A program made the translations under genes and the position numbers. From Glycomyces sp. YM15 (GTDB lineage Bacteria > Actinomycetota > Actinomycetes > Mycobacteriales > Micromonosporaceae), in the NCBI RefSeq assembly GCF_016918015.1, contig NZ_JAERMK010000006.1, forward strand, positions 4,199 to 68,198: a DNA stretch of 64,000 bases. Reading direction: 5' to 3'. Positions 29,434 through 47,534 of this stretch are shown here, one piece after another; the stretch's first letter is position 1, and each line of letters begins with the position of its first letter. Under the pieces are notes generated by a model. The model did not search any database, had not been told where the DNA came from, and saw only the letters and a list, made by a program, of their open reading frames with translations.

Positions 29434-29497
29434 TCCAGCCCCAGCCCCAGCCCCAGCCCCAGCCCCAGCCCCAGCCCCAGCCCCAGCCCCAGCCCCA
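29434..29497. repeat. CCCCAG hexanucleotide tandem repeat
   Basis: About ten and a half uninterrupted copies of a 6-base unit (CCCCAG on the plus strand, CTGGGG on the minus) lie in the 373-bp gap between the convergent rpmB and thiL genes. In each frame the repeat would read as Pro-Gln, Ala-Pro, Gly-Ala or Gly-Leu chains, but no start codon or ribosome-binding site supports a gene. The rest of the gap holds only the rpmB terminator. The length invites replication slippage. Confidence 0.85.
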
Positions 29498-32192: not shown

Positions 32193-33998
32193 CTACCTCG
32201 GCGGGTTTTCGGGATCCAGATCGAGTCTCACGTTCAGATACGGCGATCGCATCAACGCCCTGAAGGATTCCAGCGCCTCCGGATCCTGGTCCACTTCGGA
32301 GTTGCGACCTTCGGCGTTCGGGGACGAGAAGTACACGATCGCCTTCAGCCGCGGATAGTGCGCCATCTGGTCCATCGCGGCCTCGAACACCGTCTGCTGG
32401 CGGCCTGGATGCTTGTCGTCGGTGAAGACGCCCCACTCGGCGAGCATCATCGGCTTCCGCGGATGGTGTTGGGCGACCCAGTGGTAGTAACCGGGCCAGC
32501 CGAATTCGGGGTGGGTCGTGTCCAGAAGCTCCCCGAAGTCGAACCGGCCGTCGTCCTTGAGGGACTGGCCGTAGCCCGACAGGCCGATCCAGTCGACCAC
32601 GTCGTCGCCGGGGTACAGCTCGTCGTGCCACGGCACCTCGACCCATTTGAGATAGCCCATGTAGTTCATGACCGACACCAGGTTGTCCACGCCGTTCCCG
32701 CGCAGGCGTTCGATGACGTAGCGGTACATGGCCGGATAGTCACGGGCCTCCATGCCCGAGCCCGGCCGCTGGACGACGTCGTTCTCGGGTTCATGGTGGA
32801 CGGTGAAGAAGAACGGCTTGTCGAAGTTCGCCTTGATGTGCGCGGCGAGCCGGTCGAGGTAGGCGTCCACCTCCGGGTCGCCTTCGGCGATCTCGGCCCA
32901 TTTCGCCATCTGCGGCTTCCAGTTGATGAACAGGGTCCGCGGGCGCTCCGGATCCTCGGTCAGCGCGATCTGGTCCCTGGTCGGGAACAGCCGGTTGTCG
33001 GCCCGCTCATATGCGTGGTAGATCTGCTGCGTGCGATCTACTGTGGCCTCGAAATCGAGGAAGGCGTCTTCCTTGTCCAGTGAGGTCTTCCCTCCGGCCG
33101 CGGCGCCGACCAGGGCCCCGCAGGCGGGCACGAGCTTCTCGTCCGTGGCGCATTCGGTCAGCGTGTCCGCGGCCTGACCGGACTCGGGCTGCAGCGGCGG
33201 GCCGGAGGAGGGCGGGGTCGGCGACTGGTGGGAGCTGGGAGCCGACGGCAGCGTCGGGTCGGACGGCACCGGGGCGGTCGGCGCGTCGGTCGGCTCGACC
33301 GGCGAGGGCGGCTCCATGGTCGGATACGGGCTCGGCGACACCGGACTCACCGGTGGCACCGGTGAGATGGCGCGCAGGCTCGGCCCCTCGCCGTATGCGG
33401 TGCCCGCGAGTTCGAGGTACGCATCGCGGTCCGGAGAGGTCACCGCGAATCCGTAGCGGCCGGGCGCGTCGATCGCGCCCGTCACGTCGAAGACGACCTC
33501 CGTCGTGCCGGCGTCGACCTCCACCGCGTCCCATACGGCCCCGTACGGCGGAGCGGTCGCGGCCGTCAGCGCACAGAGGCAGCTCACCGGGTGCACGGAG
33601 GCGACCTCCAACGTCATCCCTTCGCCGCCGGGCGGGACCGCGACGGGCAGGCGCAGCTCGGCCGTGTGTTCGGGCCGGACCGTGGACTCGTCGAGGAAGA
33701 ACTGGAGGTGCGTGACGGTGACGCCGAGGTCCGCGGAGAAGCCGACGGGCAGCACGGCGGGCGACTGGGGAGCCGGATTCTCGAACTCGGTGGCCGTGAA
33801 GGAGGCCGCGAGCGGCTCGTGATCGTAGGTGCCGTTCCCGTCCTGCCAGGCTTCGCCGACGGTGTCGCCCAGACGGTCCCCGCCCACGCCGACTCCGTAG
33901 CCGACCACGAAGCCCGCCAACACGAGCGGGAGCACCGCCAGGGCGGTCACGATGCCGCGACCCGCCCGCAGGCGCTGGCGTGTGTCAGTGTCGCGCAT
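32193..33998 (-). CDS. Secreted GH26-like glycoside hydrolase
   Basis: A 601-residue exported protein. A basic start and hydrophobic segment (IVTALAVLPLVLAGFVVGYG) give a signal peptide or anchor; residues about 60-215 look like a beta-sandwich accessory domain; a Pro/Ser/Thr linker covers about 220-285; the last ~280 residues resemble the GH26 barrel with the acid/base Glu in FFTVHHEPENDV (about residue 403) and the nucleophile Glu in PMMLAEWGVF (about 520). GH26 enzymes cut mannans or mixed-linkage glucans. It is divergent from the Wzz-like gene, so it may trim or release the polymer made by this locus instead of feeding on outside mannan. Confidence 0.8.
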   Translation of the reverse strand: MRDTDTRQRLRAGRGIVTALAVLPLVLAGFVVGYGVGVGGDRLGDTVGEAWQDGNGTYDHEPLAASFTATEFENPAPQSPAVLPVGFSADLGVTVTHLQFFLDESTVRPEHTAELRLPVAVPPGGEGMTLEVASVHPVSCLCALTAATAPPYGAVWDAVEVDAGTTEVVFDVTGAIDAPGRYGFAVTSPDRDAYLELAGTAYGEGPSLRAISPVPPVSPVSPSPYPTMEPPSPVEPTDAPTAPVPSDPTLPSAPSSHQSPTPPSSGPPLQPESGQAADTLTECATDEKLVPACGALVGAAAGGKTSLDKEDAFLDFEATVDRTQQIYHAYERADNRLFPTRDQIALTEDPERPRTLFINWKPQMAKWAEIAEGDPEVDAYLDRLAAHIKANFDKPFFFTVHHEPENDVVQRPGSGMEARDYPAMYRYVIERLRGNGVDNLVSVMNYMGYLKWVEVPWHDELYPGDDVVDWIGLSGYGQSLKDDGRFDFGELLDTTHPEFGWPGYYHWVAQHHPRKPMMLAEWGVFTDDKHPGRQQTVFEAAMDQMAHYPRLKAIVYFSSPNAEGRNSEVDQDPEALESFRALMRSPYLNVRLDLDPENPPR

Positions 33999-34193: not shown

Positions 34194-35864
34194 TTGAGGA
34201 CCCCTGCCGCCCGCACGCTCGCCGATTACGGCGTCATCGTCCGCCGTTCCTGGTGGCTCATCATCGGAACGGTGGCCGCGGCTCTGGCCGCCGGGTTCGC
34301 CCACACCTCGCTGAGCGAGGAGGTCTACGAGTCCACATCCTCGATCCTGGTGCTGCCCACCGCGAGCGACACCGCCGTCGCGGGCGCCCGCACCGCCGGA
34401 CAGGTCAACCTCGACACCGAGGCCCAGCTCGTCAAATCCACCGAGGTCGCCCTGGCAGCCGCCGAAGCGCTCGGCACCAAGGATCCCGACGACCTCGTCC
34501 CGCGCGTGTCGGTCACCGTGCCGCCCAACACCGCCGTGCTCGAGATCACCTTCCGCGCGGGGGACCCTGAGGCCGCCCAGTCCGGGGCCGTCGCGTTCAG
34601 CGAGGCCTACCTCGAGCACCGCCGCTCCGGCGCCACGGCCTCCATCGACCGCGCGATCGCCGCCGCCGCCGTCGCACTCGACGGGGTCAAGGCCGACGTC
34701 GCCGCCGCCGAAGACGAACTGTCCCGGATGGACTCCGGCGACGACGACCGGTCCGGTCTCGAATCCGAACTCGACGCGCTGCGGCAGGAGGCCGAGGAGT
34801 TCGAAGCCGAGATCGCCGAACTCGGCGCTCAGCAGGACGCGGTCTCGCCCGGCCGGGTCATCAACCAGGCCTCCGTGCCCCGGGCGCCGGTGAGTCCGAA
34901 GGCGATGTTCAACCTCGCCGCCGCACTCGGCCTCGGCCTGCCACTCGGCCTCATCCTCGCGTGGGCCCGGCACCGCCTGGCCCGCAAGGTCGGCTACCCG
35001 ACCGACCTGGTCGAACGGTGCGAACTCGACGTGCTCGCCTCCGTGCCCCCGGCCGTGAAGTTCCAGCGCCGCGAGGTCTTCGGGGCCTACAGTCCCGGCG
35101 GCAGGGTCTTCTCCCAACTCCGCAACGTGGTCGCCTCCCAGCTGACGCACGACCAGCGCGTCATCGTCGTCGCCGGCGTGGCCCCCGGGCCCGCCGCGAG
35201 CGTCGTCGCCGCGAACCTCGCCACCGCGATGGCCCGCGCGGGCGACCGCGCCACCGCCGTCGCCGCCAACCCGAGCACCACCGTCGGCCTGCCGGAGCTC
35301 TTCGGCACGGACTCGGTGCCGGGCCTCGCGGACGTCTGGTCCGGCCGCGTCGACCTCGCCGAGGCCGCGCATGCCGCGCCCAGGCAGCCCAGCCTCAGCG
35401 TGATCGGCCCCGGCGCAGCGGCCCGGGCCGCCGGCCCCACCAGCGAGGCCGCCGCCGAGACCTTCTCGAAGCTCGCCGAAGCCGGACGCTTCGTGGTCGT
35501 CGACGCCCCGCCGCTGTCGTGCAGCGCGGACGCGCAGCTGCTCGCCGGGCACGCCGACGCGGTGATCCTCGCCGTCCAGTCCGGGCGCGACGCGATCGCC
35601 GAGACCGCCGCCGCCGCGCTGGCGATGCGTCAGATCGACACGCCGCTGCTCGGGGCGGTCCTGCTGCCGAGCGCGCTCGGTCCGATGAACACGGTCCCGC
35701 TGCCGAGCGCGCGCCGGGAGAACCCGTCGCCGCGCAAGGTCTCCCAGGACGAGACGCCCACGGACTCGCTCGAGCCCGTCGAGGGCGAGGCGGAGGAGCG
35801 GGCCGCGACGACCCAGGTGATACCGGTCGTGCCCGCCGCAGTCCCTTCGGCTGAGTCGCGATGA
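34194..35864 (+). CDS. Wzz/BY-kinase-like fusion with degenerate P-loop
   Basis: A 556-residue polysaccharide co-polymerase. The Wzz part has two membrane helices (SWWLIIGTVAAALAAGFA near residue 20 and FNLAAALGLGLPLGLILAW near 240-258) enclosing an extracytoplasmic region with a short coiled coil. The C-terminal part follows the bacterial tyrosine-kinase fold (RVFSQLRNVVASQLT; VVVDAPPLSCSADAQLL), but the Walker A site reads GVAPGPAASVVAANL (about 328), without the Gly-Lys-Ser/Thr needed to hold ATP. The tail, rich in Pro and Glu, has no Tyr cluster. It probably controls chain length without kinase activity. TTG start with AAAGG upstream; its stop overlaps the next gene (ATGA). Confidence 0.85.
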   Translation: MRTPAARTLADYGVIVRRSWWLIIGTVAAALAAGFAHTSLSEEVYESTSSILVLPTASDTAVAGARTAGQVNLDTEAQLVKSTEVALAAAEALGTKDPDDLVPRVSVTVPPNTAVLEITFRAGDPEAAQSGAVAFSEAYLEHRRSGATASIDRAIAAAAVALDGVKADVAAAEDELSRMDSGDDDRSGLESELDALRQEAEEFEAEIAELGAQQDAVSPGRVINQASVPRAPVSPKAMFNLAAALGLGLPLGLILAWARHRLARKVGYPTDLVERCELDVLASVPPAVKFQRREVFGAYSPGGRVFSQLRNVVASQLTHDQRVIVVAGVAPGPAASVVAANLATAMARAGDRATAVAANPSTTVGLPELFGTDSVPGLADVWSGRVDLAEAAHAAPRQPSLSVIGPGAAARAAGPTSEAAAETFSKLAEAGRFVVVDAPPLSCSADAQLLAGHADAVILAVQSGRDAIAETAAAALAMRQIDTPLLGAVLLPSALGPMNTVPLPSARRENPSPRKVSQDETPTDSLEPVEGEAEERAATTQVIPVVPAAVPSAESR

Positions 35865-37249
35865 CGCTCCTCGCGGCCGCCCGCGCCGCCGGGCGCGGCC
35901 GAATCGGCCCGGAGGCGCGCGGCGCGGGCGAAGGCGCCTCGCTCACTTGGCTGCTCGCGGGTTTCCCGCTGTGGTGGGCACTGGGCATGGGAGTCCTCGT
36001 GATCCCGTTCGTGGCCGCCGTCGCGGCGGTGAAGCTGGTGCGCCGCAGGTCGATCAGTGTGCCGCCCGCGTTCGGGTGGTGGCTGCTGTTCCTGCTCGCG
36101 GTCACGCTGAGCCTCGCGAACCTCGGCGTGGACCCGCCGGGCACCGTGCGCGAGACGTGGTTCTCGAGCCTGCCCGGCGCGACCTTCCGGCTCGGGTTCT
36201 ACTGCTGCTGCACGCTCATCGCGCTGTGGGCGCACAACCTCCTGGCGGAGGGGAAGCTCGAGCGGGACAGGCTGATCCGGCTGCTGGGGTGGCTGTTCGT
36301 CGTCACGGTGGCGGGCGGGTTCCTGGGGACCTTCCTCGGCTCCTTCGAGTACACGTCGCCCGTGGAGGCGCTGCTGCCGAAAGCCGTGGCGAAGGACGGG
36401 TTCGTCCAGTCGCTCGTGCACCCGGCGGCCGCGCAGACGATGGACTTCCTCGGCTACGAGACGCCTCGCCCGGCCGCGCCCTGGGGCTACACCAACACGT
36501 GGGGCAACAACTTCGCGATCACCGCGGTCTGGTTCGTCGTCGCGGCGTTCTGCACCCCGCTGCGGACGAAGTGGCGGGTCGCGGCGGTCGTGCTGCTCGT
36601 GGCCTCGCTCGTGCCCGCGGTGTACTCGATGAACCGCGGCCTGTGGCTCGGCCTCGCCGCGATCGCGGTGTTCGCGGCGCTCCGGCTGCTCGTCTCCGGG
36701 CGCCCTGGCGGGATGCTCGCACTCGGCGGCGCCGGGTGCGCGGCCGTGCTGCTCGTGGTGCTCACACCATTGGGGACGGTGGTGCAGACGCGGCTCGACA
36801 ACGGGCATTCCGATGACGGCCGCGCGTTCTCCTCGGAGCGCGCCACGGAGCTCGTGATCGAGCACTCCCCCGTGATCGGCTTCGGATCGACGCGGAAGAC
36901 CCTCGGCTCGGGCGAGTCGATCGCCGTCGGGCCGACCCCCGAATGCCCGCGCTGCGGCGGACGCACGCTCGGCGGGAACGGCCAGCTCTGGCAGGTCATG
37001 TTCGCCCACGGCATCCTCGGGACCGTCACGTACCTCGGGTTCGCGCTCGCGGTCCTGTGGCGGTTCCGCCACGACCACACCGCGGTCGGCATCGCGGGGA
37101 GCGCCGTCGTCGGCTTCTCGCTGATCACGATGTTCTACTACAACGCCCTCGTCACGCCCCTCCTGTTCACCCTGCTCAGTTACGTCCTCCTCGCCGCGGG
37201 CCGCCCGCCCGGGGTGTCACACCACGGCCCAGATACGGAGAACCGATGA
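35861..37249 (+). CDS. Wzy-like polysaccharide polymerase / O-antigen ligase family
   Basis: A 462-residue membrane protein with about ten hydrophobic helices, two large loops, and a C-terminal region with EHSPVIGFGSTRK and GNGQLWQVMFAHGILGT, the pattern of O-antigen ligase/polymerase (Wzy/WaaL) proteins. It should join lipid-linked repeat units outside the membrane. It starts inside the stop of the Wzz-like gene (ATGA) and its own stop overlaps the next start, so the three are coupled. Polymerase versus ligase cannot be told apart from the sequence. Confidence 0.82.
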   Translation: MTLLAAARAAGRGRIGPEARGAGEGASLTWLLAGFPLWWALGMGVLVIPFVAAVAAVKLVRRRSISVPPAFGWWLLFLLAVTLSLANLGVDPPGTVRETWFSSLPGATFRLGFYCCCTLIALWAHNLLAEGKLERDRLIRLLGWLFVVTVAGGFLGTFLGSFEYTSPVEALLPKAVAKDGFVQSLVHPAAAQTMDFLGYETPRPAAPWGYTNTWGNNFAITAVWFVVAAFCTPLRTKWRVAAVVLLVASLVPAVYSMNRGLWLGLAAIAVFAALRLLVSGRPGGMLALGGAGCAAVLLVVLTPLGTVVQTRLDNGHSDDGRAFSSERATELVIEHSPVIGFGSTRKTLGSGESIAVGPTPECPRCGGRTLGGNGQLWQVMFAHGILGTVTYLGFALAVLWRFRHDHTAVGIAGSAVVGFSLITMFYYNALVTPLLFTLLSYVLLAAGRPPGVSHHGPDTENR

Positions 37250-38481
37250 GCCGAGCCCTGAAGACCACTGACGACCTGCGCCGGCGCGCGACCTACCTCG
37301 CGGAGGTGCTCGACCAGTTGTATCCCGGCGCGGCGCAGGACGACGCACCGCGGCCGTACATCGTGGTGCCCGGCCGGCGCAAGCCGCGCGTGCTCATCCC
37401 GGCCGCCGACCGCAAGGTCGCCGCGGCCGCGCTGCACCGCTACGCCCGGCCCGCCGCGCGCGGCGCGCGCCTCAAGCGCGACGCCGCCGTGTGGGCCCTG
37501 CGCCTCGGCCTGGACCGGATGCTGCTGCCGCACCGGATCAAGGTCGGCGGCGCCGAAGGCATCGACGACCACCTCGCGTCCGTGCTCGGCCACGAGGTGC
37601 ATTTGAGCATCCACATCGGACCGGCGCGGGCGAACCGCAAACCGGTGCTGCAGATCCTCGACGGGGACGCGGCGACCGTGGCGTTCGCCAAGCTCGGCGT
37701 CAACCCGCTCACCCGCGAGCTCGTGGAGGCCGAGACGAACGCCACCAGGCGACTCAACGAGTTCTGCGACCTCAAGCTGCTGCAGGTGCCGCGGCTCCTG
37801 CACGCCGGGAACTGGAACGGCCACAACCTGATGGTGACCTCGGCGCTCCCGTCCTGGGACGCCCCGGCCGACACCGGGCCCGCCCGCCGCGTCGCCGCCA
37901 TGCGCGAGCTCGCCGACGCCTGCGGCACCGGCCGCTTCCCGCTCGGCGAATCCGACTACGCGACGCGGCTGCGATCGCGCCTCAAGGACCTCACCGCCCG
38001 CGGCGAGACCGACGCCGACACGCTCCAGACCGCGGGTGAGACCCTGCTCGACCGGTACGCGGGCACGGAACTGACCTTCGGCGCGTGGCACGGCGACTGG
38101 GCCCCGTGGAACACCCGCGAGACCGAGACGCTGGTGTACCTGTGGGACCTCGAGCGCTTCGAGACCGGCGTCCCCTACGGGTTCGACGCCGTGCACTACC
38201 AGTTGCAGGACCACATCGTCACCCGCGGGGCCGATCCGACGACGGCCGTGCTCGGCCTCGTCGCCGACGCACCGGCCGTACTGGCGCCCATGGGGATCGC
38301 GCCCGGCGAGGCCGAGCCGACCGCGCTGCTGTACCTCGTGGACCTCGCCGCCCGCTACATGGGCGACCAGGCCGAACGCGCGGGCGCGGCGCTCGGCGCG
38401 CTCGGCCGGTGGCTCCTGCCGACGCTGCTGCGCCACATCGCCCGCCAGCGCACCGCCTCCGAGGCGGGGGGACAGTCATGA
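37246..38481 (+). CDS. Kinase-like (APH-fold) protein of the polysaccharide locus
   Basis: A 411-residue soluble protein without a known name. Near residue 281 it has HGDWAPWNT followed about 17 residues later by LWDLERFETG; this matches the catalytic loop (HxDxxxxN) and metal-binding Asp of aminoglycoside-phosphotransferase-like kinases. The N-terminal 200 residues show weak similarity only (KPVLQILDGDAATVAFAKLG could be the lobe that binds ATP). It is fused by ATGA overlaps to the polymerase upstream and a sulfotransferase downstream, so it likely phosphorylates a sugar or lipid intermediate of the same pathway. Substrate unknown. Confidence 0.72.
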   Translation: MSRALKTTDDLRRRATYLAEVLDQLYPGAAQDDAPRPYIVVPGRRKPRVLIPAADRKVAAAALHRYARPAARGARLKRDAAVWALRLGLDRMLLPHRIKVGGAEGIDDHLASVLGHEVHLSIHIGPARANRKPVLQILDGDAATVAFAKLGVNPLTRELVEAETNATRRLNEFCDLKLLQVPRLLHAGNWNGHNLMVTSALPSWDAPADTGPARRVAAMRELADACGTGRFPLGESDYATRLRSRLKDLTARGETDADTLQTAGETLLDRYAGTELTFGAWHGDWAPWNTRETETLVYLWDLERFETGVPYGFDAVHYQLQDHIVTRGADPTTAVLGLVADAPAVLAPMGIAPGEAEPTALLYLVDLAARYMGDQAERAGAALGALGRWLLPTLLRHIARQRTASEAGGQS

Positions 38482-39356
38482 GCCAGATCAGGGACCGCAT
38501 CCCGAGCCAGTTGAAAGCCGTCGTCGGGCACTCCACCCGCACGTTCGGGCGACTGACGGCCTCGTCCCGGATCCTGCCGGGCCTGCTGATCTGCGGCGGC
38601 CAGCGCTGCGGCACCACGTCCCTGTACCGGGCCCTGGCCCAGCATCCGGCGGTCCTCAAGCCGGTGTTCCACAAGGGCGTGCACTACTTCGACACGGGCT
38701 ACGACAAGGGCATGTCCTGGTACCGGGGGCATTTCCCGACGCAGGCGGCCGCGCGGCGGATCGCCGACCACACCGGGCTCGCCCCGATCGCGTTCGAGTC
38801 GAGCCCGTACTACCTCTACCATCCGCTGGCGGCGGCGCGCTTCGCGCGGGACCTGCCCGGGGTCAAGGTGATCGTGCTGGTGCGCGACCCGGTGGAGCGG
38901 GCGTGGTCGCACCACGCGCACGAGGTGGCGCGCGGGTTCGAGCCGATCGCGGACTTCGAGGAGGCCGTGGCGGCCGAGGAGACGCGGCTCCACGGTGTGG
39001 AGGAGCGGCTGCGGGCCGATCCTTCACTGTACGACTTCGACCACCAGCACCACGCGTACACGGAGCGGGGACGGTACACGGACTTCCTCGAGCCCCTCGC
39101 GGAGCAGGTGGGCCGGGACCGGGTGCTGGTGCTCGACTCCGGGGAGTTCTTCTCCAGGCCGGAGGACGCGTTCGAGCGCGTGCTGCGGTTCCTGGGCCTG
39201 CCGTGGCTCGGGGAGTTCGCCTTCGCGCGGCACAACGCGCGCGGGCGTCCCTCCCCGATGTCCGCGTCGTTGCGCGAGCAGTTGACGGAGCTGTACGGGC
39301 CCTATGACGAACGGCTCGCGGATTGGCTCGGGAGCGTGCCGAGTTGGCGGCGCTGA
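38478..39356 (+). CDS. PAPS-dependent sulfotransferase (first copy)
   Basis: A 292-residue sulfotransferase. The 5'-phosphosulfate loop is GGQRCGTTSLYRAL (residues 39-52) and the 3'-phosphate site VRDPVERAWSHH (about 135-146), the pattern of heparan-sulfate-type enzymes that sulfate sugars using PAPS. No membrane segment. It overlaps the kinase-like gene by four bases and the flippase gene by 13. It should sulfate the polymer repeat unit or its lipid-linked precursor in the cytoplasm. Confidence 0.88.
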   Translation: MSQIRDRIPSQLKAVVGHSTRTFGRLTASSRILPGLLICGGQRCGTTSLYRALAQHPAVLKPVFHKGVHYFDTGYDKGMSWYRGHFPTQAAARRIADHTGLAPIAFESSPYYLYHPLAAARFARDLPGVKVIVLVRDPVERAWSHHAHEVARGFEPIADFEEAVAAEETRLHGVEERLRADPSLYDFDHQHHAYTERGRYTDFLEPLAEQVGRDRVLVLDSGEFFSRPEDAFERVLRFLGLPWLGEFAFARHNARGRPSPMSASLREQLTELYGPYDERLADWLGSVPSWRR

Positions 39357-40807
39357 CTTCCACCGCGACCGCGGAGGAAGCCGGGCGTGAGGAGCTGCGC
39401 GGCACGGCCCGCGGCGGGCTGGTCAACCTCGTGGGAGCGGCGGTCTCCGGGTTCGGAGGCCTGGCGGTCACCTGGCTGGCGGCCGTGGCGCTCTCGCCCG
39501 CCGAGGCCGGCGCGTTCTTCGCGGCGACCTCGGTGTTCCTGCTGGCGGGCGCGATCGCGCGGCTGGGCACGCCCACGGGGCTCGTGTACTGGGTGGCGCG
39601 GCTGCACCGGAACGGACGGGACGGCGCGGTCGGCTCGGTCCTGAAGCTCGGCCTGTGGCCCGCGGCGATCGTGTCGATGGCGGCGGCGTTCGGCCTGCTG
39701 CTGGCGGCGCCGATGTTCCAGAGCCCGGATCTGGTGCGGCTCATCGCGGTGTTCCTGCCCGCGTCGGTCGCGATGGAGGCGCTGCTCGCCGCCACGCGCG
39801 GGTACCGGCTGATGGGGCCTTCGGTCCTCATCGACAAGTTCGGGCGCACGGTGGCGCAGCTGGTCGGTTTGGGCGCGATCGCGTTGGCGGGCACGGCGTC
39901 GCCGTTCACGATCACGTTCGCGTGGGTGCTGCCGTACCTGCCCGCGGCGCTGGCGGCGGCCTGGTATCTGGCGCGGCGCCACCGGAGGTCGCGGACGGAT
40001 CAGGGGTTCCCGGACCGGGTCTCGGCCCGGGCGTTCTGGGGGTTCACGGCACCGCGCGCCGCGGCGGGCGTGGCGCAGCTGGGGTTGCAGCGGCTCGACA
40101 TCATCATGGTGGCGGCGCTGGCCGGGCTGGGCCCGGCGGCGGTGTACACGGTGGCGACGCGGTTCGTGATCGTCGGGCAGATGGCCTCCGGGGCGGTCGG
40201 GCAGTCGGTGCAGCCGCGCGCGGCCGCGGCGATGGCGGCCGGGAAGCCCGCTTCGGCCCGGTCGCTGTACCAGGAGTCGACGGCGTGGATCGTGGCGCTC
40301 ACGTGGCCGGTGTACCTCGGGGTGGGTCTGCTCGCGGACTGGTACCTGCGTCTGTTCGGCGGCGAGTACGTGGGCGGGGACGCGCGGCTGGTGGTGTGGA
40401 TCCTGGTGCCCGCCATGATGATCAGCTCGGCGTGCGGGGTGGTCGACTCGATGCTGGCGATGGCCGGGAAGACCTCGTGGCAGCTGATCGACGTCTCGAT
40501 TTCACTCGTCGTCAACGTGGGGTTGAACTTGGCGTTGATCCCTTCCATGGGGGTCGTCGGCGCGGCGATCGCGTGGTCGGCGGCCGTTCTGGTCAATAAT
40601 TTGATTCCACTCGTGCAACTGTGGCGCACGTTCGGCTTGCACCCGTTCGGGGCGTTGACGAGGCGGGCGCTGTCGGCGGCCGGTCTCGGATTCGGGGTCC
40701 TGCCGCTGGCGGTCGCACCGCTCGGCCCGCTGTGGACGACGGCCGCGCTCGCGGCCGCGGGCCTCGCGTGGGCGGTGGCGCTGCTGCGCTACCGGACCAG
40801 GATTTGA
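39344..40807 (+). CDS. Wzx-like polysaccharide flippase
   Basis: About 487 residues with 12-14 predicted membrane helices, a member of the polysaccharide-transport/MOP superfamily that flips lipid-linked repeat units across the membrane. Landmarks are the N-terminal GGLVNLVGAAVSGFGGLAVT, LGLQRLDIIMVAALAGLGPA in the middle, and PSMGVVGAAIAWSAAVLVNN before the last helices. I prefer the TTG at 39344, nine bases after GGGAG; a TTG at 39323 is also open. It works with the Wzz-like and Wzy-like proteins upstream, so the locus uses the Wzx/Wzy route. Confidence 0.87.
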   Translation: MAALTSTATAEEAGREELRGTARGGLVNLVGAAVSGFGGLAVTWLAAVALSPAEAGAFFAATSVFLLAGAIARLGTPTGLVYWVARLHRNGRDGAVGSVLKLGLWPAAIVSMAAAFGLLLAAPMFQSPDLVRLIAVFLPASVAMEALLAATRGYRLMGPSVLIDKFGRTVAQLVGLGAIALAGTASPFTITFAWVLPYLPAALAAAWYLARRHRRSRTDQGFPDRVSARAFWGFTAPRAAAGVAQLGLQRLDIIMVAALAGLGPAAVYTVATRFVIVGQMASGAVGQSVQPRAAAAMAAGKPASARSLYQESTAWIVALTWPVYLGVGLLADWYLRLFGGEYVGGDARLVVWILVPAMMISSACGVVDSMLAMAGKTSWQLIDVSISLVVNVGLNLALIPSMGVVGAAIAWSAAVLVNNLIPLVQLWRTFGLHPFGALTRRALSAAGLGFGVLPLAVAPLGPLWTTAALAAAGLAWAVALLRYRTRI

Positions 40808-40823
40808 AATCGAAAGGGACTTC

Positions 40824-41555
40824 GTGGCCAGCAATTACACCGAGGTGTTCCAGGACCCGACCGCGGTAGAGAAATACGCCGAGCGGACGTACGCTCCGGG
40901 GACGTTCTCATCGATCGTCTCCAACCGCCAGGCCGGATGGCTGCGCGGGTTCGTCCCGAACGCGTTCGGGACCAAGCCGACCCACCACGACTTCGCGTGC
41001 GGCACCGGCCGCGTGTCGCGGATGCTCGCGGGGATGGTCGCGGTCTCGCACGGCTACGACACCTCGGAGGCGATGCTCCAGAAGGGCCGCGAGCTCGGCA
41101 CGCCCGGGTACGCGCACCTGGTGCAGCCGGGCCTGGCCGCGCCCGAGGTCGACCCGGGACGGCCGGCGCTGGTGACGGCGTTCCGGTTCGTGCTCAATGT
41201 GGACCTGCATCTGCGGGACCAGATGATGGACTTCGCCGCGGCGGCGCTGCCGGACGCGGACGCGGGGCTGCTGCTGGTGGAGAACCACGGCAACGCCTCA
41301 TCGCTGCGGCACCTGCGCAAGACCTTCGGGCGGCTGGACGCGAGCACCTGGTTCCAGGAGCTCTCGCACCTGGAGATGCGGGACCTGTTCGCGCGCCACG
41401 GCTTCGAGCTGGTCGGCATGCAGGGCTTCACGCTGTTCACGCAGGGCTGCTACCGCGCCCCGTGGGGCTGGGCCTCCAGGGCCGCCGACGCGGCGCTGGC
41501 GTCGCCGCTCTCGAAGTGGGCCACGGACGTGGTCTACATCGCGCGGCGGCGCTGA
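40824..41555 (+). CDS. SAM-dependent methyltransferase
   Basis: A 243-residue class I methyltransferase. The SAM-binding motif is HHDFACGTGRVSRMLAGM, followed by YDTSEAMLQKGREL; the C-terminal part (GLLLVENHGNASSLRHLRKT) is typical of sugar or small-molecule methylases. GTG start with AAAGGGA upstream. It lies 16 bases after the flippase gene and so probably methylates a sugar of the same glycan. It converges with the toxin gene with only four bases between the stops. Confidence 0.82.
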   Translation: MASNYTEVFQDPTAVEKYAERTYAPGTFSSIVSNRQAGWLRGFVPNAFGTKPTHHDFACGTGRVSRMLAGMVAVSHGYDTSEAMLQKGRELGTPGYAHLVQPGLAAPEVDPGRPALVTAFRFVLNVDLHLRDQMMDFAAAALPDADAGLLLVENHGNASSLRHLRKTFGRLDASTWFQELSHLEMRDLFARHGFELVGMQGFTLFTQGCYRAPWGWASRAADAALASPLSKWATDVVYIARRR

Positions 41556-42169: not shown

Positions 42170-43006
42170 TCATCGGCGCCGGCGGTAGGCCTCCGCGAGG
42201 AGGCGCAAGGCTTCGGGGACGTCGTCCTTGAGGTAGCGGCGGACGAGGCGGCGGGGTTCGGAGAGCATCCGGAAGAGCCATTCGGTGCCGGTGCGCTGCA
42301 TCCATTTGGGGGCGCGGCGGCGGTAGCCGGCGATGAAGTCGATGCTCGCGCCGCAGCCGAGGAACCAGGCTCCCGGGGCGACCGCGCGGAGGCGCACCAT
42401 CACGTGCTCCTGCTTGGGGAAGCCGAGGCCGACGTAGACGAGGTCGGGGTCGGCGGCCACGACGCGTTCGACGAGGGCGCGCCACTGCGAGTCGTCCCGG
42501 TCGAAGCCCATGGGCGGGCACCAGGCGCCCACGACCTTGAGGCCCGGGTAGCGCGCCTCGAGCAGATCCGCGGCGCGTTCGGTGGGGCGCGCGGCGCCGT
42601 CCGGAGTGCCGCCCAGGAGGGCGATGCGGAGGCCGCGTGTGGCGGCGGCCTCGGAAAGGGACCAGACGAGGTCCGAGCCCGCGACGCGGGCGGGCAGCGG
42701 CGTCCCGGCCACTCGGGAGGCCCAGACGAGGGGGGCGCCGTCGGCGACCACGAGGTCGGACGCGGCGATGATCGCCCGCAGTTCGCGGCTCCTGCGCGCG
42801 GCGGCGACGATGTCGACGTTCGGCGTGACGATCTGGCCGCCGCGCCCGGCTTCGATGGCGTCGATGACGCGCGCCACCGCCTCCGCTTCGGTGACCGGGT
42901 CGATCGCGATGCCGCCCAACGCCACCCGCTTCACGGGTCCCGAGTCCGACCGAGGGGAAGCCGCGCCGCTGCCGCGGTCCGCGCGCGAAGGGCCCAAACG
43001 CTCCAT
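42170..43006 (-). CDS. WecG/TagA/CpsF-type glycosyltransferase
   Basis: A 278-residue glycosyltransferase of family GT26 (WecG/TagA), which adds a ManNAc-type sugar to a lipid-linked acceptor. Typical motifs are IVTPNVDIVAAARRS, LVVADGAPLVWASR and YVGLGFPKQEHVMVRL. The ATG at 43006 lies eight bases after a possible -10 box TAACGT with no ribosome-binding site, so it may be leaderless. It is on the minus strand, divergent from the second sulfotransferase and upstream of the antitoxin, with only 35 bases between. It supplies one sugar-transfer step of the polysaccharide locus. Confidence 0.87.
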   Translation of the reverse strand: MERLGPSRADRGSGAASPRSDSGPVKRVALGGIAIDPVTEAEAVARVIDAIEAGRGGQIVTPNVDIVAAARRSRELRAIIAASDLVVADGAPLVWASRVAGTPLPARVAGSDLVWSLSEAAATRGLRIALLGGTPDGAARPTERAADLLEARYPGLKVVGAWCPPMGFDRDDSQWRALVERVVAADPDLVYVGLGFPKQEHVMVRLRAVAPGAWFLGCGASIDFIAGYRRRAPKWMQRTGTEWLFRMLSEPRRLVRRYLKDDVPEALRLLAEAYRRRR

Positions 43007-43165
43007 GCGATCAGACGTTAGAGGTCCGCGTGCGATTTTCCGGGAATTTTGGCCCCAGGGCGTGTCCCCCACCCCACCCCGAGTCGTTATAGGAATCATC
43101 AAGGGGCGTCTGCGGGTTTCCGAGCCCGGCTCGGATCGCGGCCCCGAAAGCAGTGGAGCACCAGG

Positions 43166-44200
43166 GTGAGCGAGGGATCAGTGAGTGTGAAGATCGCCGA
43201 CACGGCCGAGCAGTCCGAGAACCGCGTCAAAGTGGTCTTCATCGGAGGACTCGGGCGCAGCGGCACGACGCTCCTCGAACGCCTGCTCGGCCAACTGCCC
43301 GGGGTGGTCCCACTCGGCGAGATCACCCACCTGTGGGAACGGGACCTGGTCGGCAACGAGATGTGCGCGTGCGGCGCCACGTTCTCGCACTGCGAGTTCT
43401 GGCAGCGGATCGGGCAGCGCGCCTTCGGTTCCTGGGACCGGGTCGACATCGAGCGGCTCAACGCCCTCAAGGCCACGGTGGACCGCACCCGGCACATCCC
43501 GGCGCTCGCGGCGAAGCGGCTCGCCCCCGCGCAGCACCAGCTCGTCACCGAGTACGCCGAGTACTTCGAGAAGATCTACACCGCCGCCGCCAAGGACACC
43601 CGCGCCCGGGTCGTGGTCGACTCCTCCAAGCACGCGTCCCTCGCGTACTGCCTGCGCTGGTCGCCGAAGATCGACCTGCGGGTGCTGCACGTCGTGCGCG
43701 ACTCGCGGGGCGTCGCGTACTCGTGGACGAAGAAGGTGGCCCGCCCCGAGTCCCCCACGGGCGACCAGATGACCCGCTACTCCCCCGCGAAGGCCGCCAT
43801 GCTGTGGAACGCGCAGAACGCCGCGTTCAGCCTCCTCGCCCGGCGCGGCGTGCCGGTGCGGCGGGTCCGGTACGAGCGGGTGATCCAGCGCCCCAGGAAG
43901 GTGATCGCCTCACTCGGCCGGTTCTGCGGGCTCGACCTTGCGGAGTCGGACTACAACTTCATCGGGGACGGTTGGGCCGATCTGGGCCCGAGCCACTCGG
44001 CGGCCGGCAACCCGATGCGGTTCACCGTGGGGCGCATCCCGATCTACCCCGACGAGGCCTGGACCGCCGACCTGCCCGACGGCACGCGGCGGATGGTCTC
44101 CACCCTGACCCGGCCCCTCCTGGGCCGCTACGGCTACCTCGACGACGAGGAGGCCCCTGTGGACGAACCCGCTCTGGAAGAGGTGACCGCCCGTGACTGA
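43166..44200 (+). CDS. PAPS-dependent sulfotransferase (second copy)
   Basis: A 344-residue sulfotransferase distinct from the one at 38478. The 5'-phosphosulfate loop is GGLGRSGTTLLERLL (about residue 27) and the 3'-phosphate site VVRDSRGVAYSW (about 175-186). Cys-rich MCACGATFSHCEFW near residue 70 resembles insertions of bacterial sugar sulfotransferases. GTG start with GGAG seven bases upstream. Its end overlaps the GT2 gene by eight bases. Two different sulfotransferases suggest sulfation at two positions. Confidence 0.86.
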   Translation: MSEGSVSVKIADTAEQSENRVKVVFIGGLGRSGTTLLERLLGQLPGVVPLGEITHLWERDLVGNEMCACGATFSHCEFWQRIGQRAFGSWDRVDIERLNALKATVDRTRHIPALAAKRLAPAQHQLVTEYAEYFEKIYTAAAKDTRARVVVDSSKHASLAYCLRWSPKIDLRVLHVVRDSRGVAYSWTKKVARPESPTGDQMTRYSPAKAAMLWNAQNAAFSLLARRGVPVRRVRYERVIQRPRKVIASLGRFCGLDLAESDYNFIGDGWADLGPSHSAAGNPMRFTVGRIPIYPDEAWTADLPDGTRRMVSTLTRPLLGRYGYLDDEEAPVDEPALEEVTARD

Positions 44201-45098
44201 CTGGCCTTCGGTGGGCGTCGTGATCCCCACGCACGACCGCCCCCAGCAGGTGCGCGCCGCGCTGCGATCGGTGCTGACCCAGTTCTACCCCGGTGAGCTC
44301 GAAGTGGTCGTGGTCTTCGATCGCGCCAAAGTGGACGAAACGCTCGCCGCCGACGGCGAGCGGCTCGTGCGGGTGGTCAAGAACGACCGCACACCCGGTC
44401 TCGCGGGCGCCCGGAACACCGGGATCACCGCGCTGGACACCGACCTCGTGGCGTTCCTCGACGACGACGACGAATGGCTGCCCGGGAAACTCGCGGCGCA
44501 GGTCACCGCACTCGGCACCGAAGCCGAGCTGTGCACCACCGCGATCGAGGTCGACTACCGGGGCCGCCGGAACCCGCGCCTGGCGCAGAAGACCATGGTG
44601 CGCCATGTCGACCTGCTCCGCTCGCGCATGATGATGCTGCACTCCTCGACGTTCCTGTTCCGCCGGTCCGCGCTGCTCGGCGGGCTCGGCCTGGTCGCGG
44701 AGGACGCGCCGGGCAGTCAGAACGAGGACTGGGACATGCTGCTGCGCGCCTCGCGGCGGCGGCCGATCGCGCACGTGGACGTGCCGTACGCGCTCGTCAA
44801 CTGGGCCGGTTCGCACTTCGAGACCCGTTGGGACACCAAGATCTCCTCGCTGCGGTGGATCCTCGACCGGCACCCGGAGATCCACGGCAGCCCCGAGGGC
44901 GCCGCGCGCGTCTACGGCCAGATCGCCTGCTGGCACGCCGCCACGGGCGACCGCAAGGAGGCCCTGCGCTGGGCGATCAGGGCGACGAAGGCGAACCCGG
45001 GCGAGCCGCGGGCGGCGGTCGCGGCCGCCGCGGCGGCGGGCATCGTCGGCGTCCCCGCGGTGATGGCCGCGCTGCACCGGCGCGGCCGCGGCATCTAG
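44193..45098 (+). CDS. Family 2 glycosyltransferase
   Basis: A 301-residue GT-A-fold transferase. It starts at a GTG (TDWPSVGVVIPTHDRPQQVR) and has the nucleotide-sugar DXD-type motif AFLDDDDEWLPG (residues 88-95) and the acceptor-side NEDWDMLLRAS with the conserved E-D. The C-terminal 60 residues are Ala-rich helices (EALRWAIRATKANPGEPRAA) like a TPR-type addition. It overlaps the sulfotransferase gene and ends at a strong terminator that also bounds the ATP synthase operon. Confidence 0.88.
   Translation: MTDWPSVGVVIPTHDRPQQVRAALRSVLTQFYPGELEVVVVFDRAKVDETLAADGERLVRVVKNDRTPGLAGARNTGITALDTDLVAFLDDDDEWLPGKLAAQVTALGTEAELCTTAIEVDYRGRRNPRLAQKTMVRHVDLLRSRMMMLHSSTFLFRRSALLGGLGLVAEDAPGSQNEDWDMLLRASRRRPIAHVDVPYALVNWAGSHFETRWDTKISSLRWILDRHPEIHGSPEGAARVYGQIACWHAATGDRKEALRWAIRATKANPGEPRAAVAAAAAAGIVGVPAVMAALHRRGRGI

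Positions 45099-45165: not shown

Positions 45166-47534
<2,369 letters not shown>

Follow-up and report, generated by a model that had tools for sequence, protein, structure and literature searches.

Co-polymerases of the PCP-2 type are thought to need cycles of phosphorylation for their function. The octamer of Wzc was reported to break when its Tyr tail is phosphorylated, and the K540M variant was described as a homogeneous unphosphorylated octamer (PMC8285477). PssP2 of Rhizobium leguminosarum was reported to lack Walker A, A' and B motifs as well as the Y-cluster; it affects the chain length of EPS, associates with itself and interacts with PssT (PMC4182512). A phosphorylation-independent subfamily has been proposed, and fused examples were named in proteobacteria (PMC12004946). 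In Actinoplanes missouriensis, sporangia formed normally only if every gene of the wps-1 cluster other than wpsD was present, and the number of released spores fell from 10^8 to 10^2-10^6 per plate when wpsK, or one of wpsA, C, F, G, H, I and J, was deleted (PMC13390465). The wpsK and wpsI mutants resembled the deletion of the cluster, which could not be complemented, and squashed sporangia were observed after deletion of wpsI as well as of wpsK and several other wps-1 genes; the authors expected a sulfated polysaccharide as the product, which is unproven (PMC13390465).

Here, we analyzed a stretch of 64,000 nucleotides (hereafter the window) from Glycomyces sp. YM15, whose genome comprises 5.67 Mb. 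The gene of interest is located on the forward strand (34194..35864) and encodes a protein of 556 amino acids, in which a Wzz/GNVR part is joined to a BY-kinase-like domain devoid of catalytic residues. Its TTG start, preceded by AGAAAGG, is found in all 20 loci from L035 to L054 (19 named Glycomyces and one MAG), and its stop codon, which ends at 35864, overlaps the ATG of the next gene. Pfam placed the Wzz region at residues 14-90 and the GNVR region at residues 217-260, the latter below the cut-off; among 19 orthologues, Wzz was detected in all and GNVR in 18 (E 0.01 or better). Two membrane helices were recognized by eye, the first at residues 20-40 (34251..34313), where the AlphaFold2 model also has a helix of moderate confidence, and the second at residues 241-262 (34914..34979), after a proline-rich segment of GNVR type. 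The protein thus has the PCP-2a layout, with Wzz and GNVR regions between two membrane helices and a fused BY-kinase-like domain, and is encoded alongside Wzx and Wzy. It scored 53.9 bits against the BY-kinase model TIGR01007, below the cut-off of 108.05. On the whole, the protein is a co-polymerase that probably helps to assemble a secreted sugar polymer.

The neighborhood resembles the wps-1 cluster. Downstream on the forward strand lie a WpsJ-like polymerase of Wzy type (35861..37249), assigned from synteny and from Pfam Wzy_C matches in 14 of 16 family members (counted at E 0.1 or better, YM15's own Wzy being without a match), a WpsI-like, APH-like kinase (37246..38481) with catalytic-type residues invariant in 17 sequences, a WpsH-like sulfotransferase (38478..39356; Pfam Sulfotransfer_3), a WpsG-like flippase of Wzx type (39323..40807, start provisional; Pfam MatE) and a WpsF-like methyltransferase (40824..41555; Pfam Methyltransf_23/25 just below cut-off). 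They are followed by a WpsC-like glycosyltransferase of the WecG/TagA/CpsF group on the reverse strand (42170..43102) and, on the forward strand, by a second, WpsB-like sulfotransferase (43175..44200, start provisional) and a WpsA-like GT2 glycosyltransferase (44193..45098). The order K-J-I-H-G-F and then C-B-A matches that of wps-1, whereas WpsE (GH26) is located between D and F in Actinoplanes and the GH26-like gene of YM15 (32193..33998, reverse strand; Pfam Glyco_hydro_26) lies at the opposite end and diverges from the operon (PMC13390465). The orthology with wpsK follows from gene order and gene families rather than from sequence comparison. On the basis of this gene order and the Actinoplanes genetics, YM15 probably possesses a Wzx/Wzy pathway of wps-1 type, with a sulfated polysaccharide as its likely product. 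Sporangia are not known from Glycomyces; since wps-1 acts in sporangia, the role of the pathway may therefore differ. Among the 87 operon loci defined below, 86 have a sulfotransferase, 80 have Wzx and 72 have a GH26-like ORF. In several loci of the family, a further GH26-like ORF with a weaker match lies on the far side of Wzx or of the methyltransferase. The polysaccharide cluster directly adjoins an atpD-like gene (45166-46593), and atpD is also found near the cluster in another genus (L080). Elsewhere in the window, positions 29435-29497 contain a perfect tandem array of 10.5 copies of the 6-base unit CCAGCC, through which the reading frames encode Pro-Ala or Gly-Leu runs.

The preliminary description had read the Walker A site as GVAPGPAASVV (residues 328-338), and the reading frame, the coordinates and the motif all proved correct. 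The former Walker A loop, GVAPGPAASVVAANLA (residues 328-343; 35175..35222), aligned on the P-loop with Ala in place of the catalytic Lys in comparisons using hhalign, MAFFT and solved Wzc chains, which themselves carry Met at that Lys; the hhalign comparison with BY-kinases of the same bacterial family reached E 2.5e-48. The former Walker A' segment, ATAVAANPSTTVG (residues 353-365; 35250..35288), has also lost its Asp, AVAANPS replacing the VDADLR of BY-kinases, and the EAxRxLRTN helix of most canonical relatives reads GRVFSQLRN. The Walker B-like strand FVVVDAPPLS (residues 433-442; 35490..35519) retains its Asp in YM15; in the corresponding VVVDAPP, this Asp is kept in Glycomyces, and Glu or other residues occur in many distant orthologues. 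The C-terminal tail (residues 496-556; 35679..35861) was correctly said to lack Tyr, none being present in the 60 residues after residue 496. YM15 thus lacks three features of an active BY-kinase, namely the Walker A Lys, the Walker A' Asp and the C-terminal Tyr cluster.

This loss of motifs is due neither to chance nor to a local error, because the gene was identified in all 22 Glycomyces genomes (split over fragments in three) and none of them has Lys in the loop. Within the genus the loop GxAPGPAAS is nearly invariant, and across lineages the replacement takes different forms (PGPAAS, SRGxAST and SAGTAAG). In the GTDB family of YM15, 93 of 101 genomes had some match, a count that also covers canonical BY-kinases. 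The family orthologues examined, a subset of these matches, were 31-51% identical to YM15 and all lacked the Lys.

We traced the operon through the order and the class, first via the co-polymerase and then via Wzy, so as to avoid a choice based on the kinase domain. To count as an operon locus, a stretch had to carry the APH-like gene together with the co-polymerase and a Wzy scoring 300 bits or more. The resulting 87 loci comprise 19 from Glycomyces, 27 from other members of its family, 21 from a second family (f31) and 20 from fourteen further families, family labels being assigned by hand from genome tables; 27 were fetched by Wzy, blind to the kinase, and the other 60 by the co-polymerase. 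Wzy matches (E 1e-10) were detected in 58 of 296 genomes, and 40 places were taken from these in addition to some obtained earlier, so that the sample covers part of the 58. EGK[ST] was found at the Walker A position in 0 of the 87 loci, which represent 16 families of the class; ten of them lack the domain altogether. Three co-polymerases scored below 120 bits (L247, L257 and L259), and one with a broken frame (L052) scored about 120. Where a locus had two co-polymerase-like ORFs, the better one was screened with the regular expression, and both loops were read. Loci that fell short of the three genes (L054, L183, L187, L194, L198, L262 and L267-L272) and those that had no recognizable co-polymerase (L236, L245, L256, L263, L265 and L266) were excluded from the 87. 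Within the former group, L272 was the only one with GK[ST], which lies within AFLGVRGKTAAD. Four of the latter group, which were anchored on Wzy (L236, L245, L256 and L263), had no co-polymerase in the stretch examined, two of them being at contig ends.

An intact P-loop at a shifted position, set beforehand as the refuting case, was sought in these proteins and not found. GK[ST] occurs elsewhere in five operon co-polymerases (L098, L101, L184, L193 and L237). In L237 it lies near the C-terminus and in L193 in the N-terminal half, and in L098, L101 and L184 the loop in the alignment has no GK[ST]. In L181 a Lys precedes the expected site by two positions (PGKAT), and GK[ST] is absent.

Outside the operon, EGK[ST] was present in 11 of 13 BY-kinases, and the two exceptions (L103 and L111) also lacked GK[ST]. 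These two carry DGRS and EERT in place of EGKS/T, possibly as independent losses or variants. At 12 of the non-operon loci (L103-L114), no operon gene was found within the stretches examined. In an unrooted FastTree analysis of 58 sequences, the 13 non-operon proteins were split with support of 0.999 from the other 45, which consist of 41 operon loci, the YM15 sequence and three incomplete loci (L183, L187 and L194). The loss of the catalytic residues is therefore old and apparently dates back to the operon's ancestor; the most parsimonious history, though not a proven one, has them lost once, at the root of the operon lineage. The word 'lost' in the preliminary description holds as far as the absence of the motifs is concerned, but not in its suggestion of a recent event.

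For 19 Glycomyces sequences (171 pairs, uncorrected), the median pN/pS was 0.21 for residues 266-495, 0.51 for residues 1-236, 0.59 for the tail and 0.23 for the second membrane helix. Because of possible partial saturation at synonymous sites, it is the ratios between regions rather than the values that count. In Glycomyces, purifying selection acts more strongly on the dead domain than on residues 1-236. The values of 0.14 at the former Walker A site (residues 320-348) and of 0.045 at the Walker B-like region indicate that the replacement sequence is held fast. Over the 87 loci, at least 70% of the kinase-like domain is kept in 75, a part in 2 and less than 30% in 10. The last group includes nine loci of f31 and one of another family (f23; L259, a short ORF), and the absence of the domain from them shows that a scaffold is not required in every lineage. 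The nine f31 loci (L195, L238, L239, L246, L248-L251 and L254) have a co-polymerase without the kinase-like domain and retain the APH-like gene.

The explanation that we favor, with a probability of roughly 0.78, is that the protein, like PssP2 and EcpK, is a phosphorylation-independent scaffold co-polymerase, in which a Wzz role similar to that of WpsK is combined with a BY pseudokinase domain. The cytoplasmic domain would keep its fold and provide a platform on which the oligomer assembles, and it may contact Wzy and cytoplasmic enzymes, with neither canonical ATP binding nor Tyr phosphorylation, the tail offering no Tyr to phosphorylate. If there is no canonical phosphorylation, the assembly would be permanent or would be controlled by means other than Tyr autophosphorylation. 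A protein that has neither the Lys nor the Tyr cannot use the phosphorylation cycle of Wzc, and the fact that PssP2, EcpK and HfsB appear to support polymer synthesis without kinase motifs speaks for a scaffold. A role as a structural co-polymerase had been suggested before, and it is well supported by the lack of a P-loop Lys in the 87 loci, the constraint on the domain and the precedent of PssP2. No BY-kinase above the TIGR01007 cut-off was detected in the YM15 genome, which lends the same role further support, and no co-polymerase besides that at 34194-35864 was found there. We also considered a second, active BY-kinase partner in this genome, but only four matches were found, all under the cut-off. 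Two of these carry a KGGVGKTT loop, and the other two did not match the P-loop pattern tried. We take the KGGVGKTT loop to be typical of ATPases of ParA/MinD type. Three of the 22 Glycomyces genomes have a BY-kinase above the cut-off, an additional canonical co-polymerase located elsewhere in the genome (L105 in G015, L106 in G006 and L107 in G018). To our knowledge, kinase-dead Wzc fails to replace active Wzc in E. coli; given that a dead kinase is insufficient there, the operon lineage must have adapted.

The scaffold role, like the fold and the oligomer, is inferred rather than observed. The profile of 19 orthologues matched Wzc (7ni2) at 1.3e-33, as well as CapAB, BceF, VpsO and Etk. The earlier view that the fold is otherwise preserved is thus borne out in terms of profile similarity to Wzc, but the fold itself is not confirmed, as AlphaFold2 gave low confidence in this part: for the whole protein (20 close sequences) the model was confident for most of residues 71-230 and below 50 from residue 236 on, and for the cytoplasmic part alone (19 sequences) the mean pLDDT was 33.9.

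It is possible, though unlikely, that the Tyr switch has been replaced by a Thr in the tail that would be phosphorylated by kinases of PknA/PknB type and perhaps read by an FHA domain. This would add to the scaffold role and does not exclude it. The pattern T.[VIL][VILMF] was found in 20 of 41 tails versus 2.7 expected (maximum of 8 in 2000 shuffles), and its acidic form (acid at -1 to -3, Met allowed at +2) in 20 of 41 versus 1.2, although the shuffles overstate significance because the tails partly share descent. Of the 11 centre residues tried, Thr gave 20, followed by Ser (4 versus 1.1) and Gln (4 versus 0.4). This analysis used 41 of 46 operon-type rows, five being dropped with tails of fewer than 20 residues. 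The tails are poorly conserved overall, and their consensus, often acid-acid-x-T-x-V-[LI]-x-R-[LV], resembles the mycobacterial XaaaaTX(X/V)phi(P/R)I quoted for M. tuberculosis Ser/Thr kinases (PMC5686395). PknA-dependent sites were reported to have acids before the Thr and Leu/Val at +3, but the PknA logo also favors Pro at +2, where the tail motif has Val, and no residue was significant for PknB (PMC7164672). In Staphylococcus aureus, PknB targets Thr8 of CapB1 and thereby reduces the phosphorylation of CapA1B1 (PMC6441080). With regard to a reader, FhaA binds phospho-T382 in the tail of CwlM, where residue 385 is Phe (PMC6180346), and GarA carries an ETTS motif (PMC5448819). The YM15 genome has 12 PASTA-domain matches, which may belong to such kinases.

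Several observations weaken this proposal, which derives from a sequence motif. The Thr motif is found mainly in YM15's own bacterial family (3 of 22 rows with a loose hit lie outside it) and in only 2 rows of the Wzy-anchored set. YM15's own copy, TQVIP (residues 540-544; 35811..35825), occurs in AATTQVIP with no acid within three residues, and of 19 Glycomyces tails 11 have the loose and 6 the acidic form. A related pattern, T..phi.[RK]phi, is present in 4 of 13 canonical tails and 14 of 41 operon tails and may thus have no connection with the loss of kinase activity. We consider it doubtful that the Tyr autokinase switch, after its loss in the operon ancestor, was replaced in YM15's family by a tail-Thr switch of PknA/PknB type, with a possible FHA reader. 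If this were true, a polysaccharide that is probably sulfated would be connected with the kinases governing growth of the cell wall, and if the Thr motif is a phosphosite, one kinase system would have replaced another on the same machine. Four Tyr-bearing canonical BY-kinases of the family (L108, L109, L110 and L114) end in a conserved Thr motif of their own, T-[QT]-E-[LF]-[ST]-R-[LI]-x-[RQ].

It had also been suggested that the co-polymerase gets its switch from the APH-like kinase two genes downstream, which would phosphorylate it. We regard this as improbable, even though the gene is present at all 26 family loci fetched by the co-polymerase and Lys149, Glu163, His282-Gly-Asp284, Asn289, Asp301 and Glu303 are invariant in 17 of 17 aligned members. 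These residues are presumably the catalytic positions of APH, and they are intact. APH-fold enzymes are mostly kinases of small molecules, and the similarity is distant: at E 0.1 or better, 6 of 17 members matched Pfam APH and 4 of 17 matched TCAD9, and solved structures gave only a chance-level profile match to fructosamine-3-kinase (E 0.2). WpsI has been called a protein kinase on the basis of an InterPro domain and its deletion phenotype is like that of wpsK; however, the flippase, polymerase and sulfotransferase mutants look alike too, so that this likeness says nothing about a direct link (PMC13390465). Moreover, the gene persists where the pseudokinase domain is absent (L248-L251), and a Wzy-anchored locus with a co-polymerase (L262) has no APH-like gene in the stretch examined. 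Its position among sugar-tailoring genes, beside a sulfotransferase and a methyltransferase, suggests sugar tailoring, and its product most likely works as an active kinase on sugars, either free or linked to lipid.

A similarly small probability attaches to the idea that other residues confer some residual or unorthodox kinase activity or nucleotide binding. The Walker B-like Asp kept in Glycomyces makes some nucleotide contact conceivable, the replacement loop is nearly constant in the genus, and some P-loop-like folds bind ligands despite a missing Lys. Nevertheless, both the Walker A Lys and the Walker A' Asp are gone, the replacement loops differ between lineages and the tail has no Tyr. 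Finally, a functionless domain decaying on its way to loss is highly improbable: the domain is missing from the ten loci mentioned and eroded in several relatives (L190, L193 and L194), but in Glycomyces it has the lowest pN/pS among the large regions of the protein.

In titles and the openings of abstracts, no actinobacterial co-polymerase with a degenerate kinase domain was found among the matches listed. Gram-negative Wzc resembles the YM15 protein in domain order and profile match but differs in being an active autokinase with a Tyr tail, for which phosphorylation cycling has been proposed, and YM15 lacks the very Lys that was mutated in Wzc K540M (PMC8285477). PssP2 is similar in that a single polypeptide carries the Wzz/GNVR part and the BY-kinase-like domain; however, it is proteobacterial and works alongside PssP, which keeps the Walker motifs (PMC4182512), whereas no second co-polymerase was found in YM15. 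In EcpK/EpsV of Myxococcus xanthus and HfsB/HfsA of Caulobacter, a BY pseudokinase has likewise been proposed as a phosphorylation-independent PCP-2 scaffold, but there the pseudokinase is a separate protein, and EcpK has no Walker motif at all, whereas YM15 retains the Walker B-like Asp (PMC12004946). In the text of PMC13390465 available to us, missing kinase motifs are not mentioned for WpsK. The operon-type co-polymerases form a large natural group, and the catalytic Lys is absent from every member read. They thus represent a natural experiment on non-catalytic roles of BY-kinases, with the contrast that the domain is strongly selected in one genus but has been dropped by certain other lineages, and wps-1 provides a case open to genetics. 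Our results would extend the idea of phosphorylation-independent PCP-2 proteins, which the literature available to us describes for proteobacteria and myxobacteria, to the actinobacteria.
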